Shown here: positions 28,857 through 42,756 of the stretch, in pieces | Layout of the letters: every line of letters begins with the position of its first letter | Numbering within the stretch: position 1 is the first letter of the stretch | Source: Desulfobulbaceae bacterium | GTDB lineage: Bacteria > Desulfobacterota > Desulfobulbia > Desulfobulbales > Desulfocapsaceae | Assembly (NCBI GenBank): GCA_024640625.1 | Contig: JAHEER010000006.1 | Span: forward strand, 1 to 64,000 | Length of the DNA: 64,000 nt | Reading direction: 5' to 3' | Translations under genes and position numbers: made by a program | Notes under the pieces: generated by a model | What the model saw: only the letters and a program-made list of their open reading frames with translations | Databases searched by the model: none | What the model was told of the DNA's origin: nothing

Positions 28857-30128
28857 TCAATCGTCGAAGTCGCCTTCCGGTCCCTTGTCAACGTCCAATG
28901 TCTGAGCCCGCGCGCTAATTTCCTCTCTGGTCCAAGCGGACGGATCCTCGATGCGGGAGGCCTCGGCGCCAATATCATGCGAACCAGCCTGGACCAGCAG
29001 TTCCATGGCAAGCGGGGCGGTATCCGAGGCGTTGAAGACATTGACCAGCATCTGATAAGCGAACTCTTCCACCCTCTTGATCATCCGTTCACGAACTTCA
29101 CGAGGTTGCCCCATCAGCCAATTATCGACCGGCAGGTTGAGGTTTTTGTAATTACCGCCGCTCCAGCCTTTCTCGCTGGCAAGCGACACCATCCTCTGCC
29201 AGGTTTCTTCGCTGACGCCCTCACCTTCGACCTTGTTGAAATTACCTTCGCGGTCGGTGATGGCGTTGCCATAGTCATTGACCTCAACTCCCCAGGAAAC
29301 CATCTGCAGGGCAGTGGCCACATTGGCTTTGGTGGTATTGGTTCCGGAGGCAATCTGGCGGAGCTTGTCGGAATTGTTGCCTGAAGTGCCATGCTGGGCA
29401 CCGGAAACCTTATAGGGAGCCAGATGTTCGTGGATTCGGGCGGTCAGTTCCACCTGTATCCCCTCTCCGTTTGCCTCTATTCCGTGGGCTGAACCGTTAT
29501 TGAGGGCAATCCAGTCGGGAAAGATGTCATGCGCGTTAAGTCCGGCAATCAGGAACCCCGCATCATCGACGGTGGACAGTCCCTGGCTGCCTTTGATTTC
29601 TCCAACTTCGGTCTCCAGCCCGGCCCAGTCGGGAATATACTGGTTGAGTTCAATATTGGCCAGCAGATTCAGATCATCGGCCATATGCGAGGCATCGACG
29701 GCGATGGAGGTTATTCCCGCATCGAACAGGGTCGGTATCTCTATCTTGGCGGCCGCCACATCCGACTCCGACTTCAGTCCGTAGTGATCGGCATGAACAG
29801 CGACCGGAATGGTGATACCCAGCGAGTTGCAGGCTGAATCCACCAGTCTGGCGATATTCCAGAAATTGACAGGACAGTAATTTGATTCTGATTTGGCGAT
29901 TTCCACGATCAGTGCTGCATTGGCACGCTGGGCAGCAAGCAAGGCGCCCTGGATAACAAAATAATTCCTGCCGTTGGCCGCCATGGTCATGGCCTGCCCT
30001 TTCCTGGCAAGTGCCCTGTTGACCACTTTGCCGCTGACCAGCAGCGCCCTCGAGTTGGGAAACAATTTCCTCACCGTCGGCGGCCTGCCGACCTCCAGTG
30101 CCTTTGTAAAAAGAGTCTTTGAGCCCAT
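28857..30128 (-). CDS. Class II fructose-bisphosphate aldolase (long form)
   Basis: About 423 residues, longer than the E. coli class II enzyme (about 360). The zinc-site histidine block is VAVHADHYG near residue 115, a second His is in NGSAHGIE near 220, and GAQHGTSGNN near 255 gives the third and the phosphate loop. It cleaves fructose 1,6-bisphosphate, or joins the trioses in gluconeogenesis with the FBPase encoded elsewhere in this window. ATG 30128 has GGGAGGAAG upstream; the frame continues to 30167 without a ribosome site. The C-terminal 60 residues, with an acidic end (GPEGDFDD), are an extra part I cannot assign. Confidence 0.9.
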   Translation of the reverse strand: MGSKTLFTKALEVGRPPTVRKLFPNSRALLVSGKVVNRALARKGQAMTMAANGRNYFVIQGALLAAQRANAALIVEIAKSESNYCPVNFWNIARLVDSACNSLGITIPVAVHADHYGLKSESDVAAAKIEIPTLFDAGITSIAVDASHMADDLNLLANIELNQYIPDWAGLETEVGEIKGSQGLSTVDDAGFLIAGLNAHDIFPDWIALNNGSAHGIEANGEGIQVELTARIHEHLAPYKVSGAQHGTSGNNSDKLRQIASGTNTTKANVATALQMVSWGVEVNDYGNAITDREGNFNKVEGEGVSEETWQRMVSLASEKGWSGGNYKNLNLPVDNWLMGQPREVRERMIKRVEEFAYQMLVNVFNASDTAPLAMELLVQAGSHDIGAEASRIEDPSAWTREEISARAQTLDVDKGPEGDFDD

Positions 30129-30259
30129 TATTGTCTTCCTCCCTGATTGTCTATACAACGAACACAAACACCGCTTTGCATCATTGTTCTGTGAGGGGCA
30201 CAGGATGGTGCCGCAGATTGGTTATAGTGCTGGTTAGACAAACGCGCAAACAGTTGCTC

Positions 30260-30304: not shown

Positions 30305-31146
30305 TCAGATCTTCTTTACAAAACCGGAAAACGGTTTCCTGCCGAACAGCCAGACAGCCAGAACACTGAGCTCATAGAGTACCAGCAGCGGTATGCCCAT
30401 CATCATCTGATTGACAATGTCGGGAGTTGGTGTCAGCACCGCGGCAATGATGAAATTGACCAGAATGGCATATTTTCTGTGTTTGTTGAGAAAGGCAACC
30501 GAGACCAGGCCTGCCTTGGCCAGAAAGACCATCATGACTGGCATCTCGAAAATAATGCCAAAGGCGATGAGAAGACGCAGTGCCAGGGAAAAATACTCGC
30601 TTACCGCCGGCAGGGAGGTGAGAAACTCATTATTGTACCCGACCAGAAATTTGAAGGCCGGCGGAAAGACGATGAAATATCCAAACGCGGTTCCGGACAC
30701 GAAAAAGACAGTGGAGATTACGGTAAATGGCACGATAACACGCCGTTCATGGCGGTAGAGCCCCGGAGCGATGAACCGCCAGATCTGATAGAAGATCATC
30801 GGGCTCGCAAGGATGATGCCGCAGACCAGTGCGAGTTTTAGATAAAAAAAAACCCTTCTTGATAAGAGGTAAAGATGAGGCTGGTGCCTTCCGGCAACAC
30901 TTCGGTGAGCGGTTTGAAAAACCAGGTTCCAATCGGCCTGATAACCACGTAAGAGAGACAGAAGCCAATGAATATCGCCGCAAAAGAATAGATCAGACAA
31001 CTCCGCAATTCACGGAGATGCTCGGTAAGAGGTTGATCTTCAAAATTTTCTGGCGTGTCGTTCATCTGGTCCGCATCTTTGGGTGCACCTGGGTGCTGAA
31101 TCGGCAAAGCCCTGCTTACCATCTGCCACGTCTTTTTGCAATACAT
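30305..31146 (-). CDS. tatC: Twin-arginine translocase TatC, reading frame broken at a T9 run
   Basis: The N-terminal half (EHLRELRSCLIYSF, first membrane helices, then FTSYQEGFFF) lies in one frame, which stops at 30838. The C-terminal half (YLKLALVCGIILASPMIFYQIW and the last helices) continues in another frame to 30305. They meet at nine consecutive T on the coding strand (30852-30844). Ten T, or reading one base twice, would give the expected EGFFFYLKLAL. Joined from ATG 31065 it is 253 residues, a normal TatC. The start is uncertain: 31146 has GGGAGG twelve bases upstream, 31065 gives the usual N-terminus. No other tatC or tatA/B is in the window. Slippage, sequencing error or true mutation are all possible. 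Confidence 0.88.
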
Positions 31147-31245
31147 ACGATTTCCCGACCTCCCGGCGCCGATCTTTCCGGAGCTCCCCCCTTCTCCGCT
31201 GCTTCGTCAAGCATCGAGTAAATATTTCAAAAGTATTTAAGATAA

Positions 31246-31275
31246 TTGACTTCTTTTTTTTGTATGGGATAGAAT
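31246..31275 (+). promoter_or_regulatory. Promoter for the PilR/PilS-like pair
   Basis: TTGACT (31246-31251) and TAGAAT (31270-31275) are 18 bases apart, with a T-rich spacer and AT-rich upstream DNA. The start would be near 31282, about 50 bases before the regulator ATG. Confidence 0.55.
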
Positions 31276-31332
31276 AGCATAATCTTCATAGCGAATTCAG
31301 ACTATTCTCAAACCAGATCCGGAACAGAGCTC

Positions 31333-32703
31333 ATGACCACAATTCTGATTGTCGATGATGAAAAATCAATGCGGGATTTTCTCAAAATTCTGCTGGTCAA
31401 GGATGGCTACGAAGTCATCGTCGCCGGTGACGGTGAGCAGGCGCTGGCCGCCCTGGGTAAAAACCGTATAGACCTAGTCGTCAGCGACATCAGGATGCCT
31501 GGTATCAGTGGACTCGAGCTGCTTGCCAAGATCAAGGACGAGTCCGAGGATATCCCGGTTATCATGATAACCGCCTTCGCTTCCCCCAACGACGCCGTGC
31601 AGGCCATGAAGAACGGGGCTTATGACTACATCTCCAAACCCTTCAACGTCGACGAGATTAAATCGGTCATCCATTCAGCCACCAATCAGACGGAAGCCAC
31701 CCTGAAGATCCAGCAGGCCGAAGAGCTGTTTCCCGAGATCATCGGCAAGGGTAAGGAGATGCTGAAAATCTTCGACATGATCAACCGGATCGCGCCCACC
31801 CCGGCCAATGTTCTTATCTACGGAGAATCCGGGACCGGCAAGGAGCTGGTGGCCCAGGCCATTCATAAGAAAAGCAAGGTGCATGCCCGCCCCTTCGTGC
31901 CCATTACCTGCAGCGCCATCCCCGAGGAGTTGATGGAAAGCGAATTATTCGGCCACATCAAGGGGTCCTTCACCGGAGCCATCAGCGACAAGAACGGACT
32001 GTTCAAGGAAGCCGACGGCGGCACCGCCTTCCTCGATGAAATTGGTGAGTTGACCCCGATTATCCAGACCAAGCTGCTGCGCGTCCTTCAGGAACGAGAG
32101 ATCAAACCGGTCGGAGGCACCAAGCAATTCACCATCGACGTCAGAATAATTGCCGCGACCAACAGAATTCTCGAAGAAGAAATGCGGGCCGGCCGTTTTC
32201 GCGAGGACCTTTTTTACCGGCTTGCCGTGGTGCCCATACGCGTTCCCTCCCTGCGGGAAAGAAAAAGCGATATTCCGCTTCTGGTCGAACACTTCCTGGA
32301 AAAGTACTCGACTCTTCTCGGCAAGGAAATCCGTGAAATTTCTTCCTACGCACTCGAGGTTCTGATGGGATATGATTTCCCTGGAAATGTAAGGGAACTT
32401 GAAAATATCATAGAACGTGGGGTGGCCCTCGAGAGCACTAATATCATTTTGCCGGAAAATCTATCCCTGGGCGGACCGCTGCAGACCAGAAGAGAGGATA
32501 GCGCCGAGTCTTCCGCTTTTGTTGCCGCCCATGATGAAGAGGAGCTTTTCGAGCGTGGTCTCGAGACGGTGGTCGCCGATCTCGAGAAATCCCTCATCTC
32601 GCATGCCCTCCACAAGGCGGGCAACTCCAAGACCAGAGCAGCCGAATTGCTGAAGGTCAGTTTCAGGTCGCTGCGCTACAAAGCCAAGAAATATGATCTC
32701 TAG
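31333..32703 (+). CDS. Sigma-54-dependent response regulator, PilR/NtrC family
   Basis: A 456-residue regulator with three parts: a receiver (1-120; phospho-acceptor Asp52 in VVSDIRMPG, Lys in SKPFN near 102), an AAA+ sigma-54 activation domain (about 135-370; Walker A GESGTGKE, Walker B FLDEIGEL), and a Fis-type helix-turn-helix at the C-terminus (KTRAAELLKVSFRSLRYK, positions 435-453). The sigma-54 contact loop reads GSFTGA instead of the common GAFTGA, as in PilR proteins. It is followed after three bases by its kinase. Targets cannot be seen; no pil genes or good sigma-54 sites are near. Confidence 0.93.
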   Translation: MTTILIVDDEKSMRDFLKILLVKDGYEVIVAGDGEQALAALGKNRIDLVVSDIRMPGISGLELLAKIKDESEDIPVIMITAFASPNDAVQAMKNGAYDYISKPFNVDEIKSVIHSATNQTEATLKIQQAEELFPEIIGKGKEMLKIFDMINRIAPTPANVLIYGESGTGKELVAQAIHKKSKVHARPFVPITCSAIPEELMESELFGHIKGSFTGAISDKNGLFKEADGGTAFLDEIGELTPIIQTKLLRVLQEREIKPVGGTKQFTIDVRIIAATNRILEEEMRAGRFREDLFYRLAVVPIRVPSLRERKSDIPLLVEHFLEKYSTLLGKEIREISSYALEVLMGYDFPGNVRELENIIERGVALESTNIILPENLSLGGPLQTRREDSAESSAFVAAHDEEELFERGLETVVADLEKSLISHALHKAGNSKTRAAELLKVSFRSLRYKAKKYDL

Positions 32704-32706
32704 ATC

Positions 32707-34428
32707 ATGAAAATCAGCACCATTCCCGAAACGCAGCTCTACCCCACGTCCCTCGGCGACCTTTTGAAACGGCAGTTGTTCTGGCTGCTTCTGCTGCGTA
32801 TTGTACTCTACACGCTGATCACGGTAATCAGCCTCATCCTGCTGGATGAACGGTTCGAAGCTATTGTCATGCCTCCGAGCCTGCTGGTCCTCTTTACCCT
32901 GATCGTCTACCTGTCGACCATCGTATCCGCCTTCACCCTGCTCCACCTGGAAAGCGAGTTTCGCCGTTTTGGCTTCATCCAGACCCTCTTTGACGTGGTC
33001 TTTGCCTCAATGCTGATCTATCTGACCGGGGGCTCGCTTTCCATCTTCTCATCCGTGTATTTTTTCCCCATCATTTCAGGCGGCCTGTTGATTCCGGTCA
33101 AAGGCGGCCTCATTGGCGCCGCCGCCTCGACGATTCTGTTCGCTCTCATCCTGCTTCTCGAGTATTTCGGTTACCTGCCCGACTACGTGCTGCTCTCCAG
33201 ATTTTACGAGGAGGTCGCCCTGTTCGCCAATATCCGTCAATTCGGTACCATGGGGCTGACTTTCTTCCTCGGAGCCTTTATCAGTGCCATGTTCGGCACA
33301 ATGCTGCGTTCAACTACGCGGGAATTGTCAAGCACCAAATATGACTTCGACCGGCTCTCTCTTCTCTACAAGAAGATTTTCGATAATATCGCCACCGGCA
33401 TTCTGACCATCAACAGGGAAGGGGTAATTACCTCCGCCAACAATGCGACCACGGCCATTACCGGACAATCTCCGACCGATCTGCTGGGCAAAGAGCTGGT
33501 GACCATCTTTCCGGGCATCGATCTTGCCAGCAGTTCCCCCCGGAACGCATGTGATTTTGAACGCCATGACAGGCAGCCGCTGAGACTCGGCTATACGCTC
33601 ACCCAGCTCCATTCCTCCACCGATAGTACCGCTGCTGATGGGCACCCCCAGACAGAGGATGTAACCATCATAACCCTCAAAGATATTGGTGAATTAGAAC
33701 GGCTGGAAAATCAGATGCGACAGGCCGAAAAACTGGCGGCCATCGGGATGATGAGCGCCTCCATCGCCCATGATTTCCGTAATCCTCTGGCAGCCATCTC
33801 AGGTTCCGCCCAGGTACTTGCCGAAGAATTGGGCTCCTCCGGCAGTTCGCAGCCACAAAACTATGAACTTACGAAGATCATTCTGCGAGAGTCAGACCGG
33901 CTGGCCAACACCATTACAAACTTTTTGAAATTTGCCCGGCCGGAGAATATAAAGAAAGACTGGTTTCTGCTGCGCCCCTTAGTTGAAGAATTACTTCAGG
34001 TCTGCAGGGCGGATAAGAAATGGCCGGCCACCTGCAGTGTCGACCTGCTCGTCGATGATACATTCCGGGTCTGGGGTGACGAAAAACAACTTTTTGGAGT
34101 GCTCAGCCAACTTCTGCAGAACGCGCTGCCATTCTGCCCCAGAGGCAAAGAGAAGCTCGAACTGAGCAGCTCAACCATCTGCGTGGCCGACAACCAGGAA
34201 CTTTGCCTGATAAAAATCAGCGATAACGGCCGCGGTGTTGAGCAAGCGGAAATCAAGAACATCTTTGAACCCTTTTACACTACTCGATCAGACGGTACCG
34301 GACTGGGACTGGCCATCGCTAAACAGGTGATAGAAGGCCATAACGGCTCCATTGCGGTCGAGAAATCGGAGATGGGAGGTGCCTGTTTTACGCTGATTCT
34401 GCCGCTGGGATTGGACAACGACGATTGA
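32707..34428 (+). CDS. PilS-like membrane sensor histidine kinase
   Basis: A 573-residue kinase. Residues 1 to about 205 hold about six hydrophobic segments, including FFPIISGGLLIPVKGG, a pattern seen in PilS. A PAS domain follows (about 222-330; NREGVITSANNA). The H-box is SIAHDFRNPLAAISG (phospho-His near 354), and the ATPase domain has the DNGRGV and GTGLGLAIAKQV motifs. There is no periplasmic loop of size, so the signal is likely sensed in the membrane or cytosol. The gene comes after the regulator, the reverse of the usual pilS-pilR order. It ends five bases from the convergent murA stop. Confidence 0.92.
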   Translation: MKISTIPETQLYPTSLGDLLKRQLFWLLLLRIVLYTLITVISLILLDERFEAIVMPPSLLVLFTLIVYLSTIVSAFTLLHLESEFRRFGFIQTLFDVVFASMLIYLTGGSLSIFSSVYFFPIISGGLLIPVKGGLIGAAASTILFALILLLEYFGYLPDYVLLSRFYEEVALFANIRQFGTMGLTFFLGAFISAMFGTMLRSTTRELSSTKYDFDRLSLLYKKIFDNIATGILTINREGVITSANNATTAITGQSPTDLLGKELVTIFPGIDLASSSPRNACDFERHDRQPLRLGYTLTQLHSSTDSTAADGHPQTEDVTIITLKDIGELERLENQMRQAEKLAAIGMMSASIAHDFRNPLAAISGSAQVLAEELGSSGSSQPQNYELTKIILRESDRLANTITNFLKFARPENIKKDWFLLRPLVEELLQVCRADKKWPATCSVDLLVDDTFRVWGDEKQLFGVLSQLLQNALPFCPRGKEKLELSSSTICVADNQELCLIKISDNGRGVEQAEIKNIFEPFYTTRSDGTGLGLAIAKQVIEGHNGSIAVEKSEMGGACFTLILPLGLDNDD

Positions 34429-42148: not shown

Positions 42149-42742
42149 CTATTTAATGGCATTGAGTGTGGTCATTGCCCGGGCGGCGTCACCTTTAAAA
42201 AAAAAGTCGAGCCCGGGAGTAATTTCTTCGAAAAGAGACTGTATCTGATGGGCTTCAGCGGCCGAGAATTTTGCCAGGACATACTTGTCAACTTCCATGT
42301 CCGGATGGGCCTCGCCGAAGCCGGGCCTGCCGATCCCTATCTTGAGCCTGAAAAAGTCGTTGGTTCCAAGTTCGCCGACAATGGATCGAATGCCGTTGTG
42401 CCCTCCCGTACCTCCGCCCTCGACCAGTTTTATCCGACCGGGGTGCATATCGATATCGTCGTGCACGACCAGCAGTTTCGCAGGATGCAGGTTGAAATAA
42501 CGCATGAAGGAAGCGACTGAACGGCCGCTTCTGTTCATAAAGGTCTGGGGTTTTAACAGATATATCTTCTTATCGCCGATCCGGATGGCGGTGCTGACCC
42601 CCTGATGCTTATCGGCCGAAAAGACTGCCCCCTGTAACTCGGCAAGCCAGTCAGCCAGCATGAAGCCGACGTTATGCCTGGTCTTTTCATAGGCGGCGCC
42701 GGGGTTTCCCAGGCCGGTGACTAGAAATTGATCACTGCTCAT
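42149..42742 (-). CDS. pth: Peptidyl-tRNA hydrolase
   Basis: About 197 residues. It frees tRNA from dropped-off peptidyl-tRNA. The catalytic His is in TRHNVGFMLAD near residue 22, with GLGNPGAAYE before it. KPQTFMNRSGRSV near 70 and HDDIDMHPGRIKLVEGGGTGGHNGIRS (short blocks DDID and GGGTGGHNG) are conserved. I start at ATG 42742; a TTG at 42754 is in frame. Neither has a good ribosome site. A terminator lies 15 bases upstream of the ATG, so expression may rely on read-through. Confidence 0.95.
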   Translation of the reverse strand: MSSDQFLVTGLGNPGAAYEKTRHNVGFMLADWLAELQGAVFSADKHQGVSTAIRIGDKKIYLLKPQTFMNRSGRSVASFMRYFNLHPAKLLVVHDDIDMHPGRIKLVEGGGTGGHNGIRSIVGELGTNDFFRLKIGIGRPGFGEAHPDMEVDKYVLAKFSAAEAHQIQSLFEEITPGLDFFFKGDAARAMTTLNAIK

Positions 42743-42756
42743 AGTGGTGCCCAATG

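Follow-up and report, generated by a model that had tools for sequence, protein, structure and literature searches.

The tatC gene in the window analysed here, a stretch of 64,000 nucleotides from a Desulfobulbaceae bacterium, is divided between two reading frames at a run of nine T, and comparison with its relatives makes it almost certain that the gene is functional and is read by recoding of some kind. The main route of the recoding is probably transcriptional slippage, by which the nine T of the gene would become ten U in the message. Three features speak for recoding: the shift, the run and the silent codons flanking it are conserved; both halves of the gene are under purifying selection; and the flanking codons change in concert in those lineages whose gene is intact. 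The slipping itself, its transcriptional nature and efficiency, and selection for a fixed output or for the short product are what we infer from these patterns. Among the options raised by an earlier, sequence-only reading of the window (a slippage-expressed gene, a pseudogene or a sequencing error), it is the slippage-expressed gene that the comparative data strongly support, with a conserved T9 shift and dN/dS below 1 in both halves.

The split tatC locus

The features of the locus are collected in Table 1. The ATG at 31077 is the likely start codon, and the frame-0 product ends in SYQEGFFFI, the frame running through CAA GAA GGG TTT TTT TTT ATC TAA on the minus strand. Past the join, the -1 frame continues with TAT CTA AAA CTC (Y L K L, the beginning of YLKLALVCGI...) and reaches its stop at 30305. 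The coordinates that the sequence-only reading gave for the split at the nine T were correct to within a few bases, and the -1 slippery heptamer T TTT TTT that it pointed out is present in the run and in phase. It had also taken the two halves to be consecutive parts of one TatC, which the family profiles bear out: the N-terminal part matches positions 1–58 of both PF00902 and TIGR00945, the C-terminal part matches positions 57–208 of PF00902 and 59–215 of TIGR00945, and jointly they cover the whole family profile. Fused in silico, the two parts align over their whole length with the solved structures 4hts and 4b4a, with no gap at the join, and 156/160 relatives have H..ELR, a conserved motif of the TatC N-terminus. 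Median dN/dS for pairs of moderate divergence is 0.23 in the N-terminal and 0.125 in the C-terminal part, values that indicate purifying selection on both halves.

Table 1. Features of the split tatC locus, in window coordinates
Feature	Position	Strand	Remarks
tatC frame-0 part	30838..31077	minus	79 codons + TAA; N-terminus, TM1, first periplasmic loop
Nine-T run (putative slippage site)	30844..30852	minus (A9 on plus)	holds in-frame heptamer T_TTT_TTT
Gly codon GGG	30853..30855	minus	directly 5' of T9; member of the conserved cassette
Frame-0 stop TAA	30838..30840	minus	one sense codon past the run; formed from Leu CTA + A of Lys (-1 frame)
tatC -1-frame part	30305..30841	minus	TM2 to C-terminus; 178 residues from LKLAL + stop
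Class II fructose-bisphosphate aldolase-like gene	28857..30167	minus	downstream; usual neighbour of split tatC in the order (context)

The split tatC lies apart from tatA/B, and the aldolase-like gene is beside it in 50 of 100 long loci, a count limited by contig ends. Within 30305–34428 of the window, the split tatC is divergent from a gene for an NtrC-type regulator and one for a PilS-like sensor kinase, a pair that adjoins split tatC in many related loci.

No second tatC had been seen in the window by the sequence-only reading, and the two further complete tatC genes of this genome do indeed lie elsewhere (C70, which adjoins a tatA-like gene, and C16). That reading regarded a complete second copy as grounds for giving up slippage; such copies exist, but the idea survives them because they are old paralogs found across the family, and it is the split copy that is nearest to the usual TatC of the phylum. 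By identity values rather than by a tree, the paralogs C70 and C16 are 36–41% identical to the split copy, and in most of the other genomes sampled from the phylum the best TatC match is 43–59% identical to it. Being closer to the phylum's usual TatC than the paralogs are, the split gene is apparently the ancestral copy, passed on vertically.

Conservation of the shift across the order

Orthologs were searched for with the C-terminal part of TatC alone, a query blind to the T-run that yields an unbiased set of 50, and they were found in nearly all relatives. In the sister genomes, where the sequence-only reading had suggested looking, T9 with the same shift is present in 29/29 of the nearest relatives; of a further 20, more remotely related, nearly every one has it too. 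An exact, in-phase TTTTTTTTT is found in 48 copies of the unbiased set; the other two are those of G041, whose T9 lies one base off, and G045, the sole intact copy. Across Desulfobulbales, the relaxed motif CARNNNGSN-T9-ANCTNAAR occurs in 210/258 genomes (132/149 of the good ones) and in 63/69 genera; with four variants recovered by protein search, the shift is present in at least 214 of the 258 genomes. In the phylum sample, the motif is found in 0/379 genomes outside the order, all 16 matches falling inside Desulfobulbales, and the outgroup TatC is in frame, typically with EAFFTYLK and in the closest outgroup with EAFFLYLK. The 38 genomes of the order with neither the motif nor its in-frame version comprise 33 with no ortholog, many of these assemblies being incomplete, the four shifted variants and one intact gene. 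In G048 and G069 of family f13, which are 93–99% complete, the split-tatC ortholog is apparently absent and a 40–42% identical TatC remains; some f13 genomes of this completeness may have lost the ortholog.

Conservation on this scale bears directly on the two trivial explanations of the shift. A sequencing or assembly error at the homopolymer would be suggested by the fact that runs of nine are error-prone in some sequencing chemistries. However, the same T9 length is found in five single-contig genomes (G009, G016, G018, G040, G047) and in the assemblies of Desulfofustis glycolicus DSM 9705, Desulforhopalus vacuolatus DSM 9700, D. singaporensis DSM 12130, Desulfogranum mediterraneum DSM 13871, Desulfopila aestuarii DSM 18488 and Desulfobulbus alkaliphilus DSM 24258, and an error cannot produce the bias in frame-0 stop codons described below. 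The strain names also assign the group to Desulfobulbales. The order-wide conservation of the T9 shift leads us to reject this option, whose probability we regard as negligible. The second explanation is a pseudogene, inactivated by a one-base deletion and decaying while the two paralogs took over its role. The presence of two complete paralogs and the few genomes devoid of a split tatC would suit such a scenario; against it stand an ancient shift common to most families of the order and free of decay, a dN/dS of 0.13 past the join, and silent positions at the join that are more conserved than the remaining gene. With the shift conserved order-wide, dN/dS well under 1 on both sides and no sign of relaxed selection or decay, the pseudogene is rejected as well and is exceedingly improbable.

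A silent-site cassette around the run

Silent positions near the run are far more constrained than the rest of tatC. Sets found by pattern presuppose T9, and one of them also the stop, so the counts are safest from the unbiased set, in which the three Phe codons are all TTT in 48/48 in-phase shifted copies (TTT makes up 67% elsewhere) and the Leu codon that follows the run is CTA in 30, CTG in 18 and CTC in 2 of the 50 copies. The base preceding the run is G or C in 155/160 copies; where a Gly stands there, it is encoded by GGG in 116/129 split copies, against 23% gene-wide, and by GGT, which would extend the T-run, in 2/129. CTA or CTG follows the run in 158/160 copies, placing a frame-0 TAA or TGA one codon past it. 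CTA alone accounts for 56% at this position, compared with 2.1% elsewhere; none of 38 other Leu columns exceeds 4.8%. At the next Leu, the rare TTA is used in 35/159 copies and creates a second frame-0 stop, TAG. Upstream of the run, the purine-rich CAGGAAGGG is conserved. One shifted copy, L312 of G103, has GGT before the run, which makes it T10, and TTT where the Leu codon would be; its frame-0 stop comes two codons later (ACT TTA AAC TAG), and the exact position of the stop can therefore move.

Could the conserved stop serve to separate two proteins instead? The N- and C-terminal parts would then be made as a two-piece TatC, the second by re-initiation past the frame-0 stop; a stop right at the join could allow such coupling, and an SD-like AGGAAGGG lies just upstream. 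However, an ATG, GTG or TTG of the -1 frame falls within five codons past the join in only 24/160 copies and then at varying positions, ATG is seldom met in the vicinity, and the T9 itself would be left unexplained. With no conserved internal start codon, a separate start of the C-terminal part is unlikely, and we consider a two-piece TatC very improbable.

Lineages with an intact gene

By pattern, tatC is in frame in only 10 genomes of the order, one of which, G134, has a shifted copy as well. Intact genes are found in family f1 (genus g7: G146, G150, G151, G153), family f12 (genus g49: G121, G124, G125), f14 (G249), f3 (G237) and f10 (G045), and as the second copy of G134. The cassette differs in these genes: GGG is used in 0/7 Gly-bearing intact orthologs (Fisher p 5e-7 against the split copies, relatedness ignored), CTA at the post-run Leu in 1/11 intact copies, and most intact copies have TTC within the former run, so that the run is usually broken. 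Strict co-occurrence of T9 and shift was considered and does not hold, as two in-frame copies of the f14 type keep T8 (L304) or T9 (L306, in G134); the association between run and shift is strong, not absolute. In G134, the shifted tatC is on C128 (L305) and the intact one on C205 (L306), the latter grouping with f14; this genome may be a mixed bin, or the intact tatC may have been transferred.

When the shifted, intact and outgroup states are placed on the tree, six changes are counted. The intact copies of g7 and g49 are nested among shifted ones and look like true returns to frame, some of the forks being moderately supported. G045 is sister to all split copies in an earlier tree and pairs with the split G046 once more intact copies are added. 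Several lineages thus have an intact tatC, which means that the recoding is dispensable.

Tracts of the T9 type mutate readily, and a single inserted T would restore the frame; nevertheless, an in-frame GGN followed by ten T was found in none of the intact versions listed. The absence of the in-frame T10 points to a shifted state that is actively kept. It also bears on phase variation, in which the run would vary in length at the DNA level within populations, T9 being off and T10 on. T9 is a possible tract for replication slippage, but phase-variable tracts show mixed lengths between isolates, and in a between-species comparison the in-frame T10 state is absent across the genomes of about 220 species; phase variation therefore has next to no likelihood.

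Proposed slipping by the polymerase or by the ribosome

In the reading that we favour, RNA polymerase would slip on the T9 (template A9) so that a fraction of the transcripts carries ten U instead of nine. The U10 transcripts would be translated into full-length TatC (...EGFFFYLKLAL...), and the unslipped ones into a 79-residue product consisting of the N-terminus, TM1 and the first periplasmic loop, which would end one codon past the run, at a stop that selection would have put there. Nine-T runs are known slippage sites, and a conserved T9 or A9 length among homologs is taken as a mark of purposeful slippage (PMC1088944); E. coli RNA polymerase prefers insertion on poly(T) (PMC6260861). By the measure of PMC1088944, an A/T run of about nine is conserved in length among the homologs (48/50 exact plus one displaced T9). 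The protein encoded downstream in the shifted frame is conserved as well (dN/dS 0.125). However, the T9 is fully explained by Phe-Phe-Phe together with the T_TTT_TTT heptamer, and run length alone cannot separate the polymerase from the ribosome. Coding T9 is also tolerated with no shift, as in the intact copy of G134 and in a gene that looks by sequence like pth (peptidyl-tRNA hydrolase; window 42149–42754, minus strand). The in-frame T9 of the latter, at 42197–42205, encodes GLDFFFKGD near the gene end, where slippage would change the C-terminus.

The main rival is programmed -1 ribosomal frameshifting on U_UUU_UUU at codons 2–3 of the run, by which an mRNA with no added U would yield the same protein in full length; the SD-like AGGAAGGG/AGGAGGGG directly upstream may assist. 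In nearly all copies, the heptamer has the frame-0 phase expected of an X_XXY_YYZ site, and even the displaced copy of G041 keeps one (T_TTT_TTT or T_TTT_TTA); the conserved purine-rich stretch upstream of the run points the same way. In known -1 sites, the SD-like stimulator stands 10–14 nt upstream; here the SD-like stretch abuts the run. RNAalifold, applied to five windows of 158 sequences, gave no consensus structure up- or downstream, so that no 3' stem-loop stimulator is seen among these folds, which are pseudoknot-free and do not speak to a pseudoknot. The mean minimum free energy of the -30..+30 segment, -15.6 kcal/mol, is unexceptional, the strongest windows elsewhere in tatC being close to it (-15.0 and -14.9). 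U_UU.U_UU.U is among the motifs that shift at more than 0.10% in E. coli with no stimulator, yet such unstimulated heptamers reach at most about ten times the background of 0.055%, well under 1% (PMC4066793). Ribosomal slipping would not lead one to expect so marked a preference for G before the run, or so few GGT codons (2/129). On balance, ribosomal frameshifting is an unlikely main route, and transcriptional slippage remains the reading we prefer.

What might be gained from slipping? Tentatively, the slip could be regulatory: a set share of tatC transcripts would meter out the ancestral TatC, and the rest would supply a 79-residue fragment with a role of its own; this N-terminal fragment might, for example, limit or tune Tat complexes. 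We hold this to be possible though rather doubtful. A regulatory slip would explain selection both against the easy one-base repair and for the frame-0 stop after the run.

Comparison with known systems

The split tatC is likely to be scored as a pseudogene or as missing in Desulfobulbales genomes. For Desulfotalea psychrophila and Desulfurivibrio alkaliphilus, a TatC survey gives no more than two loci apiece (PMC3827258); the relatives in our sample, which were not matched to those surveyed genomes, typically have three tatC matches, and the two-locus counts would fit an overlooked split gene. In the literature covered, no report of slippage or frameshifting was found for tatC or for Desulfobulbales, most subscription papers and the supplementary cluster tables of two studies, GeneTack and Sharma et al. 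2011, being outside its scope. The GeneTack text searched names no tatC cluster, and a prior listing of tatC in the supplementary clusters of either study is possible.

The kind of mechanism is already known: in bacteria, the most familiar cases of recoding are insertion sequences, prfB, dnaX and a few genes for secretion. In Shigella flexneri, transcriptional insertion of a nucleotide at a U run joins the two overlapping ORFs of mxiE (cited in PMC1088944 and PMC5009743), and slippage extends 25–30% of the spa13 product (PMC5009743). As proposed for tatC, the product of one gene is made by slippage at a homopolymer. However, mxiE and spa13 are plasmid-borne type III secretion genes, whereas tatC is a vertically inherited chromosomal Tat gene that is split order-wide and keeps a frame-0 stop one codon past the run. 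In dnaX of Thermus thermophilus, a core gene with a nine-base homopolymer, transcriptional slippage on A9 yields a long and a short product in set proportion (PMC1088944); there, the unslipped reading gives the long product, while in tatC the long product would need the slip. The conserved frameshift clusters of GeneTack, such as magnesium chelatase on A7–A11, with 40% frameshift product on nine A (PMC3711429), likewise comprise chromosomal genes in which a change of frame is conserved at a homopolymer; unlike tatC, they use poly-A and are scattered across genera.

Lineage-wide recoding of a housekeeping gene with an in-frame stop is shared by tatC and prfB. In prfB, the shift is ribosomal, autoregulated by RF2, free of any homopolymer and opposite in direction to that of tatC. 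Its +1 frameshift is described as such a lineage-wide case (PMC12421855). Set beside these systems, a tatC that is split throughout an order and intact in several of its lineages would be one of the slippage cassettes with the deepest conservation, and the contrast of intact with split lineages would offer a natural experiment on the reasons for retaining recoding.
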